Source: Gloeopeniophorella convolvens (lineage: Eukaryota; Basidiomycota; Agaricomycetes; Russulales). From it: a DNA stretch of 64,000 nt. The first letter of the stretch is position 1. Every line of letters starts with the position of its first letter. The notes below the pieces were generated by a model. It had not been told where the DNA came from. It saw only the letters and a list, made by a program, of their open reading frames with translations, and made no database searches. A program made the translations under genes and the position numbers. Location: assembly GCA_022496205.1 (NCBI GenBank), contig WTXD01000004.1, positions 620,001 through 684,000 on the forward strand. The letters are read 5' to 3'. Below, one piece after another: positions 36,021 to 44,346 of the stretch.

Positions 36021-36161
36021 AATTCAAGCCCCTTGTCTCATTGCTTGTAGAGGTTTTCCTACTACTTAGTCTAGAGCACAATGTCAAATATCAAGTATGA
36101 CCGTAGTGCACACTCATGAACTCCGTCCTTCAAATAGCTCACGCAATACCGATTGCAGGTA

Positions 36162-36185
36162 GTCTACATCAACTTAAGGGGGTTT
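36162..36185 (+). repeat. Left terminal inverted repeat
   Basis: Begins gtcta and continues catcaacttaagggggttt. It matches the reverse complement of 42117-42140 at 23 of 24 positions; the fifth base is A here and G on the right. The following bases are CAG here and GAG on the right, so similarity runs slightly further in. The core contains the palindrome CTTAAG. Confidence 0.9.
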
Positions 36186-36403
36186 CAGTGGACGACGGTC
36201 AGCTTCCTGTTTTGGACGAGCCATGTGCCACCCTCGGATACTCTCCGAAGGGTCATGTCATTACAGTAGCATAATATAGTCACATGACCAGACGCGTACC
36301 AAGACGCGTCCGTTACCATTGTTCGCAATAACAAGTAATTGTCGCTCTTTTCATGGGCTTCCTGACCCTCTGTACTTTGTAAAGTCAGATTCTCACTTGA
36401 AAT
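36186..36403. promoter_or_regulatory. Left subterminal region, helicase leader
   Basis: Non-coding 218 bp between TIR and helicase start. It holds two copies of agacgcgt (about 36290-36309) and an AT-rich stretch (gcataatatagtcacatgac, about 36268-36287) that could be the core promoter. Confidence 0.4.
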
Positions 36404-38661
36404 ATGAGCAACACAACAAGTCTCCAGTCAGAAGAATGCAAATCATATATCAAAACTACTCTAACCAATCATCTGTCTACTCAGTGGCCGGCTGGGCCAC
36501 GCGATTGGCAGGTCGATGCCACAGCTAATATACTGGCCAAGAAGAATCAGCTTATCGTCGCGGGATGTGGAGAAGGAAAAACCGCTTCGATGTACCTCCA
36601 TCTTTTGTTGAACGGCCTGCTCTTGCGCCACCCCGACCTGCGCGCGCATGGCATCCCTGTTCATCCATGTCCGATGGTCATTAATGTGACGCCATTGACG
36701 GCGCTGGCAGACAGTCAAGTGAGCGGCAATTTGATACTCACAGAGCAAGACTCACGTAGCAGCTGATGAAAGGTACAAGAGATGACGCGTATGGGCCTGC
36801 GCGCAATCTCACTCGATAGCAAGACAATGCGTATGGCGGCGGACGCTGGCCGAAATGTGCACAAGGAGATTCTGCAGGGCATTTGGCAAATTCTTCTGGT
36901 GTCGCCGGAACGTCTTGGCCAACCCGATTTTAACAAAGTCCTTCGCAGTGATGAAGTTCAATTGAGGCTCGCTTTGGTTGTTGTGGACGAAGCGCATGTC
37001 ATCGTGTCGTGGTCGAACGACTTCCGCGAGGACTACAAAAAAATCACGTCCCTGTGTCTTCGCATCAGATCAGACTGTCCAGTCTTGTTCTTAACAGCTA
37101 CACTGACCCTGGCAGCGCAGCGTGCACTGATGGACCTCGTGGGCTTCCAGGACCGAAGTTATATCACGATTCGGCGCCCGATCATGCGACCGAACATGCG
37201 CCTCGTTTTCAGGACGCTCCGACATGCAATCAATCCAAAGGATGGGAAGTTTCCGGATATTGCATGGATCGCATCCTGTCGAAAGAAGGTTATCGTATTC
37301 TGCAAAACATCTGGCCAGGGACTCGATGTTGCTTCGTACCTGTGGCGACTGACACTTGCTAGCGCGGCGGAGCGCAAGCGGCGAATCCGTCTGTACAACG
37401 GGACCACAGAGGACGGACGTACCGACACAACAACACTCACAGACTTCCTGGACGATCCCGAGTTCACGGTGATCATCGCGACAATAAAATTCGGCATGAG
37501 AGTCGATACTCTCCGTAACGTGCGCATATCTGTGAATTTCGGGCTTCCTGATACTGCAGAAACACTCTTTCAGCAGCTTCATCGAGCCGGAAGGAATCCG
37601 GCACGACCAGCGCTCGGAATCACTTACATCGAGCAACCCCATGTCACAGCGGTCGAGAAGGGCCTTGAAGAATCGGATATTAATGAGCTTGAAGAGCAAG
37701 AAACCATACCAGATTCACAGGTGATGGCAGTGTCGAACAAGAGCAAGACTCGGAGTGGGCCGCTGAAGGACTTAGGGAATCTTCGAGTTGTCCAGGCACA
37801 CGTGCGCGGGGATTGCGTGGTAGTCGAACTCAACCGGCTTTTTGCGGGCCCGGCGCCTGATACCCGTGACCTGCAAGACTGTCTTGCGACCGACCGTCCC
37901 CTCCCATGTTCGGGATGTATGCGCCGCCAGCCGCCTTCCCACCACCCCCTGCACTCCTCATGTCTACACCCACATCTAGAACCCAAGGAGCCAATGTTGA
38001 AGACCCTCAGCAAGAAAGATCAGTTGAAGATCTTCCCATGGACGACACGCCGGACAACCTCACATCGCGAACCCCATTAGGCCTGGACCAGAAATTCATC
38101 GCCTATCGTGAGGTCGACAAGTTTCTGCGCCGGCGGTACGCTTTGAGCATGGATACGTCTGCCGTACATCTTCCCTGGACTGCATATATGCCGATCGCGA
38201 TGCGCAAAGCGATCGTCGCGGATTTTCATCGAATCCGCGACCGCGAGCAGTTGGCTGCTATCTGCTATGACTGGAAACATCTAGAGGCCGATGGACCGGC
38301 TCTTTTCGACACTGTCAAGGCTCTCAACGCTGTCTTCGATGTAGAGCTTGCTGAGAAACCTGGTCCAAAGGTGCAGAAGAAACGCGGTATGACACGCTGC
38401 TGCTTGTAGACATGCACACGCTGATAGTCTGATACAGCGCATGAAGTGACTGATGGCGACGCCAACGGAGACTACGCACCATCGGGTCGCGAAGTGGTGG
38501 TGTCCGACCCATCACGCGGAGCGCAGCGCACGAGCACTGCTCGGGGTGCTCGGGGTGCTCGGCATACCCAAACTCGTAGAGTGGGTGCAGCAACCACGAG
38601 GAAGAGTAGAGCAGGGCAATCACACGCTGCACCATCGGCCAAGCGAAGGAGGACTGGGTGA
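36404..38661 (+). CDS. RecQ-like SF2 DNA helicase of the element
   Basis: ATP-dependent DNA helicase of RecQ type, about 700 residues in my model (exons 36404-36718, 36773-37880, 37931-38386, 38438-38661). Motifs in order: P-loop VAGCGEGKTASM, VTPLTALADSQ, ILLVSPERLG, the DEAH box VVDEAHVIVSWSNDFREDY, FLTATLTLAAQ, KKVIVFCKTSGQGLDVASYL, FTVIIATIKFGMRVDTLRNVRISVNFG and motif VI TLFQQLHRAGRNPARPALGITYIE (degenerate against QRAGRAGR). A Cys-containing stretch (GDCVVVELNRLFAG ... LPCSGC) resembles the RecQ zinc region. The downstream part (LGLDQKFIAYREVDKFLRRRYAL ...) ends in a basic tail, SAKRRRTG. The junction at 37881-37930 is uncertain: a 50-nt intron restores frame but removes CSGC, and a frameshift is the alternative. 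Confidence 0.8.
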
Positions 38662-38679
38662 GTACAACAACGCGTACAA

Positions 38680-41600
38680 CTACCACATCGATTGACCATC
38701 CTCAAAGGTTATAGCGGGGTCTAGGTACACTGTAGGGTCTTCGTAACCCTCTGGCATCTGTAATTCTTCAGTCATATTGGTGTGCTCCCTCACCCCCTTC
38801 TTGACGAATTCCCCCAACTTCCCGTCACCAAGGACATCAATCCCTGCAGAGAAGTGATCCTTTGCGTGAAAACCAAAGTCACGCCCGTCGCACCGCACGT
38901 GTAATTGAAATTTTTTGCAGGATTTCATGATCTCGATCAGCTCAAAGTTAAGATGAGGAGACATATGTGCTTTCCGGCGCGCCTCCAGTCGCGCGTTTTG
39001 CTCCATCTCCCGTGTGATATGGAGAATACTGTCGACTTGGAGCGACAATATCTCGCGGTACCATGGATGATCGTACTCCTTGCCCTTGTGCTGTGCTAAC
39101 TGTGCCAACCAGTGATTGAAATGTTCCTGCATCAAGTCAATCTCGAGGAAGTGCCCGGGCTTCCCTGTCCGATTGACGAGCCAGTTCTCGAACAGGGCTC
39201 GCCGCATCGGCTCGGGGTACTCCAGCTCAAGGTTGCAGAACATTTCCACAAGGTACTGCGAATAGCGGTTGTGCCCGGAGCCTGCAAACGAGAACAACCA
39301 GATCTGCGGGTGTAGTCAGCTCCCCTTGCCGAGGAATCACGCTCAGATGTTTGCTGACCTTGAGAACTTCCCAGACGCGTCCTGCATCACCCAAACTCAC
39401 TGCGCGCACGACCTCCAAGTACAACACCCCGCTCCGAATGAACAGAGTGCTGTTAGCCAATGCGTGGTCCCCAAGAAACGGACCGTCGTGGAAAGATATA
39501 GGGTTGTCTTCTGTTGCTTTTGCTTTGCCTTTGCGGCGCTTGCGCTTGCGCTGTGGCTGTGGTTCCGCTCCACCGGCATCTTCCGGGAGCATGTCTGCGC
39601 CTTGCGCCGCGCTGTCTTCATCTGCAAGTGGCCACTGTGCTCGGTCTGCTTCCTCGCGCCACGACAGGTTTCGAGGAACAGAGTGCAAGCAATCTGGGTG
39701 CTCGCTCGCTGGATCCATGGCACGGAGGTATGCCGCCTCACTTGCATAGCGGGTTGCCAATATGTCCGCGTCCTGAAGTAGGGCCGTCAAGCTTGGTAAG
39801 CGATCTTCCCTCCCGAGCTTCTCGAAATGATCCAAAAGTGTGAACTGATCGCGCTCTTCAGGCGGGATGCTCTCCACGAACCACACCCTACCAAATTAAT
39901 ACGACCTTTGCACCATAATGTGAGAATATCTACGCACCTCCAACAATCAAGGATGTGCCCTTGGACCACGAGGCCGATCGTACGCGTCCCTTTGTAATAG
40001 TCTGTCTTGTCTGACTCTGCAGTCGGCTTGATGGTGCCCGTGAGCAGCGCCATGAAGCCAAGGGTCGATGGTTCGACGCGCGCGAGGTCACCTCCCCAAA
40101 ATCCTTCAAAGATGCGATTCATGTCTGTCCATTTTGTGTGCCAGAGCTCCAAGACCGGTCGTGCGAAGCGCAGACTGCGAAAATCATCTTCAATCCCGGA
40201 GAGGATGTTTTTAGCTGTATGCAATCCTTCAAAGGTCTTGCCATCACCAGAAATGAACATGGCGCGTCCCTCCGATGTCTCGGCGGTGCAGCCGATCTGA
40301 TCGAGAAAGTCACAGACCGCCTCCTTGACGCCGCGTGTTGAGACCTCATTTTCACTGTTCGTTCCCAGAGGGTAGACAACAGTATGTCGGTGAGGGTCGA
40401 TTTGGTGTCGTTGTGCTGCCTCTTTGAACAGTTTACTGACTGGCTGACGCAGGTGCAATAATTGAGGGATATATGTGACTAGTGTTTCGATGAAGTGGAA
40501 TCGAAACACGGTCGCAATATGATCTGTATCGATTTTGCCCTGGACGTCGGTGATGGTAAGTTCTGCGCGCTCCTCTTTTTTGATGTTCTCCAGGAATAAC
40601 CGGAGCAGCAGATCGCCCCACGTACAACCCTCCATCTGGATCACGGTTGCTGCCGTGCCAGTAAGCATTTTATCGGTGACTCCAGTTCCAAGTTCTCGGC
40701 GATTTGCCTGCACCTGAACATTGTCCATTACGAGCAATGATGGCTTCGGCTCCTTGAACAGGTGGTTTCGTGAAACGCGCTCCACCTTCGACATGGTGAT
40801 CAGCGCCGCATATACCGTTGCATAAGGGACGTTCTGTGCGAAGCGGCTGCCTATCCGGTATGTTGCCTGATGTGCTTTTGATGCGAACAGTGTCAACCCT
40901 CTGCACAACGGCAGTAGGTTAACGCGTGAGTTCCGCGTGAAGACCATCTCGCTGAGAACGCTAGTGCAAACCTATACCGCGGTAAGTTTTGATCAACACG
41001 AACATTAACAGTTTTGAAACACTCACAAGATCCTTAGGTCGATACAAACTATCCGCGTCCTCGTCGTTCTCCGAGTCTTCCCCCACACCCGCGTCCACAA
41101 AGTCACGCAAAATCTTCCAAGTCACTGGTGCGTTATGTTGATACTTCTTCGTCAGTTTGGCCATTGAGAATTGCCGAACAAGATCCCACGAAACGTAGGG
41201 GTCTCGCATCGTCCGCGTTTTTGAAGGTGGCGACCCTGCACTCGCTTGCGAAGATGATGGCTCGGTCTGTGGCTCAAGACCGATGTCGGTGTGGTCTGCG
41301 GACCCCTGGGTACTTGGAACAGCTTCTGCACTCATAGATTAGCACCATACTAGCCTGCCTTGACTTTACTCACCCTGCGGCGAGTCATGTCCCCCTGCGG
41401 CATGGCCACTTGCTGACTGCTTCCCTGCCGATGCTTTCCCAGCGCGAATACGAAGACCGGCTTTCTGCGAGCAAAGGTACTTGGCCTCCTGCTCTGTTTG
41501 CTCGATTACTCGGCGGAGGCACCATGTCGCGATTGCGGGGCCTGCGAACTTGATGTCCTTATGTGACTTTGAAGGTGAGAAATAATCCGCGTGGCTTTCA

Positions 41601-41917
41601 TGTGTGCGTTCGCTCGCGTGGCTATACCGATGGTGCCAGATCATGTTCACGGTATCGGCAGCGTTGTGTGAGTTCTTCCCGGACAGAAAACTCTGCAACT
41701 TGTGGCCATGGAGCGTGTCCAAGTCGACGTCGTCGCGGAAGAACTCGTGTAGGAAGCTACCATAGCTCATGCCCGCATCATCAAGCAGTTTTGCAATCCC
41801 ATCTAAGATTTCGTTGGGCTTGGGCTTGTTTTTCTTCTGTGCAGGTGCAGACGGGTCATATTGGATGAATCCGTCATTTCCTGCTGCTGCACGGCTCCGT
41901 TTCACGCGTGGAGGCAT
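38680..41917 (-). CDS. DUF6589 protein of the element, candidate transposase
   Basis: About 1,009 residues from five exons (41917-41374, 41325-41027, 40971-39938, 39887-39359, 39303-38680); all four introns are GT-AG, 48-55 nt, and in phase. The N-terminus is basic and disordered (MPPRVKRSRAAAG). The DUF6589 core includes SLLVMDNVQVQANRR (Asp near 364), KMLTGTAATVIQMEGC, YPLGTNSENEVSTRG, FISGDGKTFEGL (Asp near 524), PVLELWHTKWTDMNRIFEGFWGG and GHILDCWRVWFVESIPPEER. A later part has NRYSQYLVEMFCNLELEYPEPMRRALFENWLVNRTGKPGHFLEIDLMQEHFNHWL. The spacing of DNVQ, GDG and a C-terminal acidic helix recalls RNase-H-fold transposases (inference). The family is known from agaricomycete genomes without an assigned function. 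Confidence 0.85.
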
Positions 41918-42116
41918 GGTACACTGGACTCAGGTGGCATCAAAGACACGGTCGCGTTGTCCAAATGCAGAGTGCTTAGCACGTGCGGTCCTCGTCATGT
42001 CATTGTAGTGATGAGCAGCCGGATATATCACACATTTTGGATTACATGCTACCTCAGAACAATAAGAGACAGTGCAACGCGAGAATCTAAATGAGGAAGG
42101 TGCTGGTCGCTCTCTC
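41918..42116. promoter_or_regulatory. Right subterminal region, DUF6589 leader
   Basis: Non-coding stretch between the DUF6589 start and the right TIR. Just inside the TIR the reverse strand reads gcgaccagcaccttcct, loosely matching acgacggtcagcttcct at the left end, a possible shared subterminal protein site. Confidence 0.4.
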
Positions 42117-42140
42117 AAACCCCCTTAAGTTGATGCAGAC
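42117..42140 (-). repeat. Right terminal inverted repeat
   Basis: Reads aaacccccttaagttgatg followed by cagac, the reverse complement of the left terminus except for one transition. Confidence 0.9.
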
Positions 42141-42182
42141 CTTATCCATCGCGGAACGACTGTCTTCCGCGATCGGCATAAG
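42141..42182. repeat. Stem-loop directly abutting the right TIR
   Basis: The arms cttatccatcgcgga (42141-42155) and tccgcgatcggcataag (42166-42182) are complementary apart from two unpaired bases, around a 10-nt loop. The hairpin begins at the base after the TIR, so it is either the outer end of the element or a target-site feature. Confidence 0.6.
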
Positions 42183-44346
42183 GTCGGCAACGGAGACTAG
42201 ATTGCAGGGACGTGGTACCGTCGGAGGCCTGAAACAATGCCATGTCCCTGCCCGAGACGGGCTGCCAGAAATTCGTCGCAACGTTCGCGACAACAGAGTG
42301 CTGATTCGCTAATGACTTGATGGTGTGACGGAACGCGAGAGAAAGTCCGCAGTCGCCAGCGCGACTCGCGATTACGGAACTGAATGGTCGGACGATGTCA
42401 AAAGCCTAACAGAGGCAAAGGCAGTTCCCGGGGTCCCCGTGACGCGTGGGCCAATGGCAGAATTTCGGACCGCTAAATTGACTCGCTCTCATGGATAAAA
42501 GCCCCACTGAACGCCCGCGCGGCAACTTCTCTCCGGTGCCCTTTTTTCCTTGTCCTCTCACTCGCCTGCCCCTCCCTTTGGCCTCCGCTTCACCACAAGT
42601 CGAACGGAGGCATCTGTCTGTCTGCTCAAGCACCTCCGTATCGCAGGGGGGAGGGGGCCTCCGTAAGACATGCTCTCTCGTGTACGGGCACCTCTCTGCT
42701 TAGGCAATCCCCTTTCATCGTCTTCGCTTCAGATCACCCCCCCCCCTCCTCCTCCTCTCCCCAATGTGTACGGCTCTTCGTGGTGTTATGCACTCTATTG
42801 CCGTCTTAGCTGTCTACCTCCCAACCGGATACAAGATTGCCGATGGGTGAAATCATGTGCTAACGACCCATCAGGTTGCTAATCGACCTCATCGCCCTAC
42901 ACGACACACCTTCACCCACGCTGTCCCCTCCAATCATATCTCTCATCTCCCTTCCTTCATGCGACCCACTTACCCTCCGTTCCCACGAAGATGCCCGATC
43001 ACCGCGGTTGCTGTCAAATCTCGGTGCGATCGGCTGTCGGCCATATGCCAGCGCGCCATGTGCGACGTGGGCGGACTCACCTGTCTCGGTGATGCCGGCA
43101 GTTTCGTGTCCTCAGGATTGCGTGATGGCTCGGGGCTCGTAGCCCTTACTCGGGGGCTATGTGATGCATTCTATGCGCCGCGCTGGTTTGGGCGCGCTTG
43201 CGCCCCCCTGGTCCTCGGAAGCCACGTGAAGAGTTGCAAGCGCAATTCGCTGTTGGCTGGACTTACTTCCCCAGCTCCGGCTCGCTTCCCTGGCGTGTTC
43301 CATTTCAATTTCAGGCATGCCGGTTGTTTTCGCTGCAGCCCCAAAGGCAAGGACCTTGTTCTAGCTGTCCCCTTGCCGTTCTGCCGAGGTGTTGTATCTA
43401 TCTTTTACATGAGGCCTCTTTGGGCCAATTGGTCGGCGGTTGCAATCTGAAGCGGCTCTTTGAAGCTATCGACGGATACCCTTCACTCCGCCTCGCGTGT
43501 GGCTGAACTGGAGTGGCTCCTCGTCTCGGATCTCACGCTCCGCACATCCCACGACTTCATTCATGGGGCGCTGTTTTACGGCACTACCATCCCTTTACGA
43601 GTTGGTGGGATGTGGCAGTTGAACCGCTGATTCAGAGGTGTGGGCGTGTAATGGGTCTGGAAATTTGGCGCAAATTCCGTGCTACGATCATTATGGGAAC
43701 TGTCTTTACGTTCATGATTGAAATGGAAATCCCATGTGGTGGTCGCCTTCGCAGTTCGGGCCTGTGGAGACCGTCGCAATTGAATATTCAAAGTGAGCGG
43801 TGACCATTCAGGCCTGGCAGGGATGGGCCACGTCTTCCGGTGGACAGGCACTGGGTGGTTTGGCGCAAGTCCACCCAAGCCACAGAACAGGGCACCGACG
43901 TCCACGTTCAATGCGCGCTGCTGATGAATGCCGAAGCGTCTCGGAGAATTGGTGCCAACAAACTAGCGTTGCTGGGAGTGGCGTTGATGTATTCAAAGAT
44001 TGTGCCTCTTTCCGTACGGCGCATGCATGTGTACGAGCCTGTCACCCCAGCTAGTGATATTGCGAACCCAATCATGGTCCAGTACTATCCACACAGGGGT
44101 GTAGACTTCCGCGAGCGCATTCTACATGGGATGCCTCATCGACGGCTGGCGCTGAGCGGCCATTTCCGCTTAATTCGATTTTGTACTGGTACCATGCAAC
44201 AGGAAAGGGCCTTCTCACTAAGCTTGGTGGATAAATGGCGTAGACAAAAAAGCGTGGTAATAGGTATCTGGCACAGAACACAGGGCACAGAAGTAGCAAT
44301 AACTAAGCGGGTCGCAAAGGCCAGATCAGTGGCAGCCACTAGTAGC
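42183..44346. other. Gene-poor 2.2-kb stretch right of the element
   Basis: No family-like frame. A TATA-like ggataaaag at 42492-42500 followed by pyrimidine-rich DNA (42540-42760, with a C tract at 42728-42737) looks like a promoter and leader, but the frames after it (such as 42857-43450) have no recognisable product. A non-coding transcript or degraded gene is possible. Confidence 0.4.

Follow-up and report, generated by a model that had tools for sequence, protein, structure and literature searches.

Gene content and boundaries of the element

We analysed a 64,000-nt stretch of DNA from the basidiomycete Gloeopeniophorella convolvens (assembly GCA_022496205.1, contig WTXD01000004.1, positions 620,001 to 684,000 of the forward strand), referred to in its full length as the window, and characterised an element within it that carries two genes, one for a RecQ-like helicase and one for a DUF6589 protein. 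An earlier note, made from the sequence alone, had seen in this gene pair and its enclosing inverted repeat the layout of a DNA transposon, which is borne out by target-site duplications, an uninterrupted site and further copies that share its ends. The element is mobilised as one unit that has defined short termini, gives rise to a 9-bp target duplication (10 bp in two copies) and has short non-autonomous relatives with the same ends. It is very probably a recently active DNA transposon, with DUF6589 as the putative transposase and the RecQ-like helicase as a helper that is probably needed.

The 24-bp inverted repeat, in which one position is mismatched, is present as the note had described it (36162-36185 and 42117-42140), but its outer edges are not the boundaries of the element. 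Identity between copies places the left end at 36160, where it stops at TAGTCTAC, and at the other end extends past the inner repeat and a hairpin to GGAGACTA, so that the true right end lies at 42199, 59 bp beyond 42140. At their outermost positions the two termini match each other in no more than TAGTCT and one of the two bases that follow.

Both genes named in the note were recovered by Pfam and Protein Data Bank (PDB) matches and by exon models, in which splice sites are predicted from consensus and frame only. According to these models the genes are indeed convergent, with 19 bp rather than 18 bp between the stop codons and non-coding ends of 244 and 282 bp rather than about 200–240 bp (Table 1). 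The DUF6589 protein of 1009 amino acids, encoded in five model exons, is open in both full copies known from this genome, and three of its exons score above the curated cut-off of the PF20231 (DUF6589) profile (50 to 174 bits vs 27). The intact exons claimed in the note can thus be upheld for this gene and not for the helicase of the window copy, the reading frame of which is disrupted towards the C terminus and in which a motif V residue differs. In the second full copy, on contig C356, the helicase (three model exons) is open for 717 amino acids. Pfam recognises DEAD above and Helicase_C slightly below the cut-off, and the best PDB matches of the C356 helicase are RecQ, BLM, RECQ5 and WRN (E down to 2e-20, approximately residues 90–410). 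By these matches the helicase is assigned to the RecQ group, with a superfamily 2 (SF2) core nearest to RecQ. RQC and HRDC domains are absent from its Pfam listing, no separate search for either having been made.

Table 1. Features of the element and its target-site duplications, in positions of the window.
Feature	Position	Strand	Remarks
Whole transposon	36160..42199	.	6040 bp, TAGTCTAC...GGAGACTA; between-copy identity ends exactly here
Target-site duplication GATTGCAGG, left	36151..36159	+	9 bp; single copy in C309
Left end	36160..36185	+	Terminus TAGTCTAC, then inner repeat ATCAACTTAAGGGGGTTT
RecQ-like helicase, model exon 1	36404..36718	+	Weak DEAD match
RecQ-like helicase, model exon 2	36773..38386	+	Window copy: frame broken in C-terminal part
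RecQ-like helicase, model exon 3	38438..38660	+	Splice model only
DUF6589, model exon 5 (stop codon)	38680..39303	-	Pfam E 7e-40
DUF6589, model exon 4	39359..39887	-	Pfam E 2e-13
DUF6589, model exon 3, first half of PF20231 domain	39938..40971	-	Pfam E 6e-51 (open frame)
DUF6589, model exon 2	41027..41325	-	Gene model
DUF6589, model exon 1 (start codon)	41374..41917	-	Gene model
Inner inverted-repeat copy near right end (right boundary in the earlier note)	42117..42140	-	
Right end	42136..42199	+	Hairpin, paired 42138-42185, and 14-nt tail finishing in GGAGACTA
Target-site duplication GATTGCAGG, right	42200..42208	+	9 bp; single copy in C309

Copies, target-site duplications and empty sites

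The 15-base core of the inverted repeat has 23 exact matches genome-wide, 21 of which are ends of 11 complete elements, the other two being single ends (C1 and C2). The 22nd end of the complete elements, on C24, contains one mismatch in the core. If up to two mismatches are allowed, 33 matches compare with 22 in the reversed control, and only the exact matches are therefore informative; two of the ten inexact matches were examined, one being the C24 end and the other, on C201, no element. Defined inverted termini are hence common to 11 complete copies at unrelated sites, which is a class-level feature of terminal-inverted-repeat (TIR) DNA transposons.

The 11 copies comprise two full and nine short elements, so that the copies with shared ends for which the earlier note had called exist within the same genome, and the TIR recurs at a DUF6589 gene elsewhere, namely on the second full copy. 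This copy (C356, 6041 bp) differs from that of the window by 13 substitutions and one indel and lies between different flanks. The short copies (699–701 bp) are nearly identical to each other, and their similarity to the full element is largely terminal, at 76% in the first 194 bp and 89% in the last 230 bp, with a further 47-bp piece at 82%, indicating that they derive from a diverged relative and not from the window copy. At element positions of approximately 365–450, the short copies (e.g. L014:1493-2193) contain a stretch resembling box A and box B of a tRNA promoter, followed by a T run; a tRNA was rejected, since neither ARAGORN nor Rfam reports one.

Target-site duplications, likewise sought in the note, are of 9 bp in seven of the 11 copies (the window copy, C24, C126, two on C334, C372 and C383c) and of 10 bp in two (C231 and C356). 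The remaining two copies form a close inverted pair on C383, each bearing the duplication of the other, which looks like an inversion between the two copies. When C383:680065-681599 is compared with C126:7281-8200 (L026–L029, L012), the approximately 130 bp between the inverted copies are flipped on C126, and the site of the second copy is empty there.

An empty site for the window copy, the third observation that the note had proposed, was found on C309. Joining the flanks of the window copy with one duplication kept gave a 100% match over 400 bases to C309:294-693, and the contig follows the flanks of the window over 493 bp on the left (100%) and 716 bp on the right (98.6%) with no element between them. 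C309 thus appears to be an allele-like contig in which the site is uninterrupted and unduplicated. The C356 copy is located in a repeat, unoccupied copies of which exist in the same genome: of 70 candidates 40 were scored, and among the matches listed many span the join, the best being C381 at 100%. For an element of another family, C, that lies on C168, the uninterrupted counterpart is found on C94. Repeats and apparent empty sites could in principle be artefacts of assembly or haplotype separation, given that the assembly is fragmented into 404 contigs and that the empty sites lie on the short C309 (10.9 kb) or on C94, which was not checked. However, the 9-bp duplications differ between sites, substitutions differ from copy to copy and independent families display the same anatomy, and we attach practically no weight to this explanation.

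Related element families in the genome

The PF20231 profile has 34 matches in the genome, grouped into 21 loci, and a helicase match lies near 16 of these, the two genes being convergent in all 16. Thirteen of the paired loci were recovered by searching the whole genome with the protein, and the other three (C57, C2 and C342:144752) by searching single loci locally. The latter hold the weakest helicase matches (E 5e-5, 7e-5 and 2e-7), with Pfam DEAD below the cut-off at C2 and absent at the C342 locus. The DUF6589 locus on C68 is truncated by the contig end, and for those on C10, C88 and C105 no helicase is among the genome-wide matches listed, their surroundings not having been read. Elements of families B, C and D start with TAGTCTCG at both ends and family E has this terminus at one end, while the termini of family F read TAGACTGG. 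On C344, a diverged relative of the window family starts with TAGTCTACATCCATTTTAGGGGG; its helicase is 73–77% identical. The window element belongs to a larger group within this genome, characterised by convergent DUF6589 and RecQ-like helicase genes and by termini of the TAGTCT/TAGACT type. Most families of the group also have a sequence able to form a hairpin close to one or both ends. Duplications of 9 bp were observed in all seven other full elements for which both flanks were read, located on C168, C235, C251, C161, C290 (families B and D) and C342 (family F). They also occur in two of the three short C–E type elements with both ends read, the third, on C1, showing no matching duplication.

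Inward-facing ends were paired within 9 kb from two pattern scans allowing one mismatch, which had 54 and 87 matches as against 1 and 11 in the reversed controls. This gave 22 pairs of a hairpin-type with an other-type end, eight of 136–212 bp, five of 1976–1996 bp and nine of 6156–8389 bp, one of the nine being a double count caused by a duplicated terminus on C235. In eleven pairs both ends were of the other type, and one of these pairs spans a nested element; no pair had hairpin-type ends on both sides. On C235 (285071-285103; L042:572-603) a family C terminus occurs twice in tandem (16 bp) within its target duplication. On C290 (135010-148197; L043, L044) a family B element is interrupted in its right end by a family D element, which is flanked by a 9-bp duplication of its own, TGGAGGAGG. 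Scans of viral contigs, prokaryote genome contigs and plasmids, collections that are non-fungal and hence uninformative for fungi, revealed no relatives outside this genome.

Hairpin ends and solo hairpin insertions

The right end of the window element folds into a long hairpin that ends 14 nt from the terminus (z -4.7; none of 200 shuffled sequences folds as well), and its left end folds no better than shuffles (z +1.2). Left ends of families C, B and D also fold (z -3.1, -2.9 and -5.2), as does the right end of B (z -3.1), and the right ends of C and D do not (z +0.4 and -0.3). In E and F a stem is found at one end, within the shuffle range (z -0.6 and -1.5), the other end of F giving z +0.1. 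A strong hairpin is accordingly present at a single end in A (the family of the window element), C and D, and at both ends in B. A rule of one hairpin end per family was not borne out, given the right end of B and the stems of E and F; the mechanism proposed below is unaffected, since it did not rest on this rule. The hairpin is on the 5' side of DUF6589 in A, C and D, as is the stem of E; that of F is on the side of the helicase.

Hairpin ends also occur by themselves. A 43-base pattern of the right end, allowing up to three mismatches, was found at 33 places and nowhere in the reversed control; 11 of these places are ends of complete copies and 22 lie elsewhere. The scan with the short element yielded 25 hairpin-only matches among 40 scored of 89 candidates, and 24 of them were read (C73 was left out), the first 20 stretches giving 23 hairpin matches. 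In 17 of the 23, similarity to the 74-base query starts at its positions 15–20, immediately within the base of the hairpin, and in none does it start before position 12, so that none of the solo hairpins contains the inner repeat. The solo unit measures approximately 55–60 bp. A direct repeat of 8 or 9 of 9 bases spans the unit in nine of the 23 and abuts it exactly in seven. With six more stretches, 10 of 29 show a repeat of at least 8/9 and 15 of 29 one of at least 7/9, compared to 1.1% and 3.4% of 804 mismatched left/right pairs, and 14 of 29 have no such flanking repeat; L068, L092 and L093 have a common flank, and the 29 are therefore not all independent. The flanking repeats of 8–9 bases suggest one-ended integration, and the solo units are most economically read as products of one-ended strand transfer that were then trimmed back to the hairpin. 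Decay of longer elements might account for single cases, though not for repeats directly adjoining the base of the hairpin. On C374 (36850-37250; L082), a palindromic unit of approximately 70 bp consists of two C-family hairpin-type ends, with no matching duplication by eye.

Hairpins near one end in several families, solo hairpin ends and a helicase conserved with the pair might also be expected from a helicase-led peel-and-paste process, Helitron-like in spirit, in which unwinding of one strand would proceed from the hairpin end, with the hairpin serving as the signal to start or to stop, and DUF6589 would nick, join or bind the ends. However, the elements possess 9-bp duplications and have short termini that match between the two ends, features that Helitrons are not known to share, their helicase is RecQ-like and not PIF1-like by its best PDB matches, and no Rep domain was found in Pfam. 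We therefore regard helicase-led transposition as unlikely.

Selection on both genes and candidate catalytic residues

Ratios of nonsynonymous to synonymous substitution rates (dN/dS) were obtained from Nei–Gojobori codon comparisons of open frames in which introns were kept and some edges are misaligned. Between families, where dS could be estimated, they amount to 0.06–0.16 for DUF6589 and 0.08–0.15 for the helicase, with 10 of 28 and 4 of 7 comparisons saturated, respectively. Two close pairs gave 0.09 (L045–L046) and 0.56 (L048–L051), and DUF6589 among four close B copies 0.66–1.32. On the basis of these codon comparisons, both genes are under purifying selection between families. Both proteins seem to be needed over time, with single copies drifting, and retention of the helicase across families suggests that it is needed rather than carried along.

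These data bear on the possibility that the pair is a passenger, i.e. that the genes are of host origin and owe their mobility to an unrelated transposase acting in trans on ends that it recognises. Movement of the gene-less short copies implies that a trans-acting enzyme exists, and no nuclease domain was recognised in either gene. Yet the same pair, always convergent, accompanies different ends in several families, and selection has preserved both genes between families, which renders a passenger role very improbable.

We infer instead that DUF6589 is the transposase, and it is present with each of the end types represented among the gene-bearing elements read. The D and T of a GDxxT motif and the D of a GDxG motif are conserved in all seven aligned DUF6589 sequences, and a DN motif aligns in the five rows that cover it in a separate alignment, being unaligned for the window protein in the seven-sequence alignment.

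Proposed mechanism and relation to known transposons

In the model that we propose, DUF6589, bound to the subterminal repeats, would cleave the DNA at the termini and transfer the 3' ends to a target cut with a stagger of 9 bp. Its active site may be of the acid-residue (DDE-like) kind and include the invariant D of GDxxT. The RecQ-like helicase might open or extrude the hairpin end, or remodel a strand-transfer or repair intermediate.

Several observations weigh against a transposon in which DUF6589 is the transposase and the helicase its helper. DUF6589 matches no transposase family in Pfam, neither with the window exons (E <=1) nor with eight aligned members (E <=10), and no solved sequence relative was found, the one PDB match being cytochrome c at E 0.34. 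Single-sequence AlphaFold prediction of exon 39938-40971 gave no usable fold, with a predicted local distance difference test (pLDDT) score of 31.5. At the DUF6589 locus on C4 inspection revealed no helicase, and about nine helicase matches have no listed DUF6589 (C344, C55 with two, C246, C46, C395, C342:106681, C224 and C349). Some of these may be host RecQ genes or damaged copies, and the C344 locus runs off its contig. A search of the genome for an empty site of the family B copy on C161 was negative, the right flank of this copy itself being a repeat. In addition, a class of solo hairpin insertions is unexpected under plain cut-and-paste transposition.

The element is a DNA transposon of a possibly new superfamily, differing from each of Academ, Kyakuja-Dileera-Zisupton (KDZ), Mutator-like elements (MULEs) and Helitrons in at least one of the features compared. 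MULEs are cut-and-paste elements with 9-bp target duplications of some length variation and with non-autonomous short copies. The window family resembles them in its duplications of about 9 bp and its short non-autonomous copies, but differs in its short termini and its RecQ-like helicase, and Pfam detects no MULE transposase domain, DUF6589 alone being above the cut-off. The KDZ elements of mushrooms are large multi-copy fungal DNA transposons with 8-bp duplications; the window element has another gene pair, and no KDZ domain was matched in Pfam in eight aligned members (E <=10) or in the window exons (E <=1). Helitrons lack a target duplication and encode an HUH Rep protein with a PIF1 helicase. 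The window element shares with them a helicase and a hairpin near one end, but has a 9-bp duplication, matched termini at both ends and a helicase of RecQ-like type, and the Pfam scan of the element gave no HUH Rep domain.

Academ resembles the element in that these DNA transposons are said to include helicase-bearing members. The element could thus belong to an already named helicase-bearing superfamily such as Academ, whose transposase would be listed in Pfam as DUF6589. Academ duplications are, however, of 3–4 bp, as opposed to 9–10 bp here, and we consider such membership possible, although doubtful. This explanation overlaps with the mechanism proposed above, because the name would change and the mechanism would stay the same. 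With chances that we tentatively place slightly below even, the group may instead constitute an unrecognised eukaryotic DNA transposon superfamily, defined by a DUF6589 transposase with its own RecQ-like helicase, TAGTCT-type termini, 9-bp duplications and a hairpin end that can also integrate by itself, in units of approximately 55–60 bp, by one-ended, hairpin-trimmed joining that leaves tiny solo ends across the genome. DUF6589 genes elsewhere would then be transposases as well.

To our knowledge, DUF6589 is a curated Pfam family without assigned function. The window protein, a clear member of PF20231, is located in a mobile element with defined ends, which makes the movement of DNA a plausible task of the family and its function directly testable. 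An element of cut-and-paste type that keeps its own RecQ-like helicase under selection also makes one ask for what purpose a helicase might be required in transposition. The solo hairpin ends point to the persistence in a genome of one-ended integration products, which could be counted there. In genome annotation, these genes would otherwise pass for host helicases and unknown proteins.

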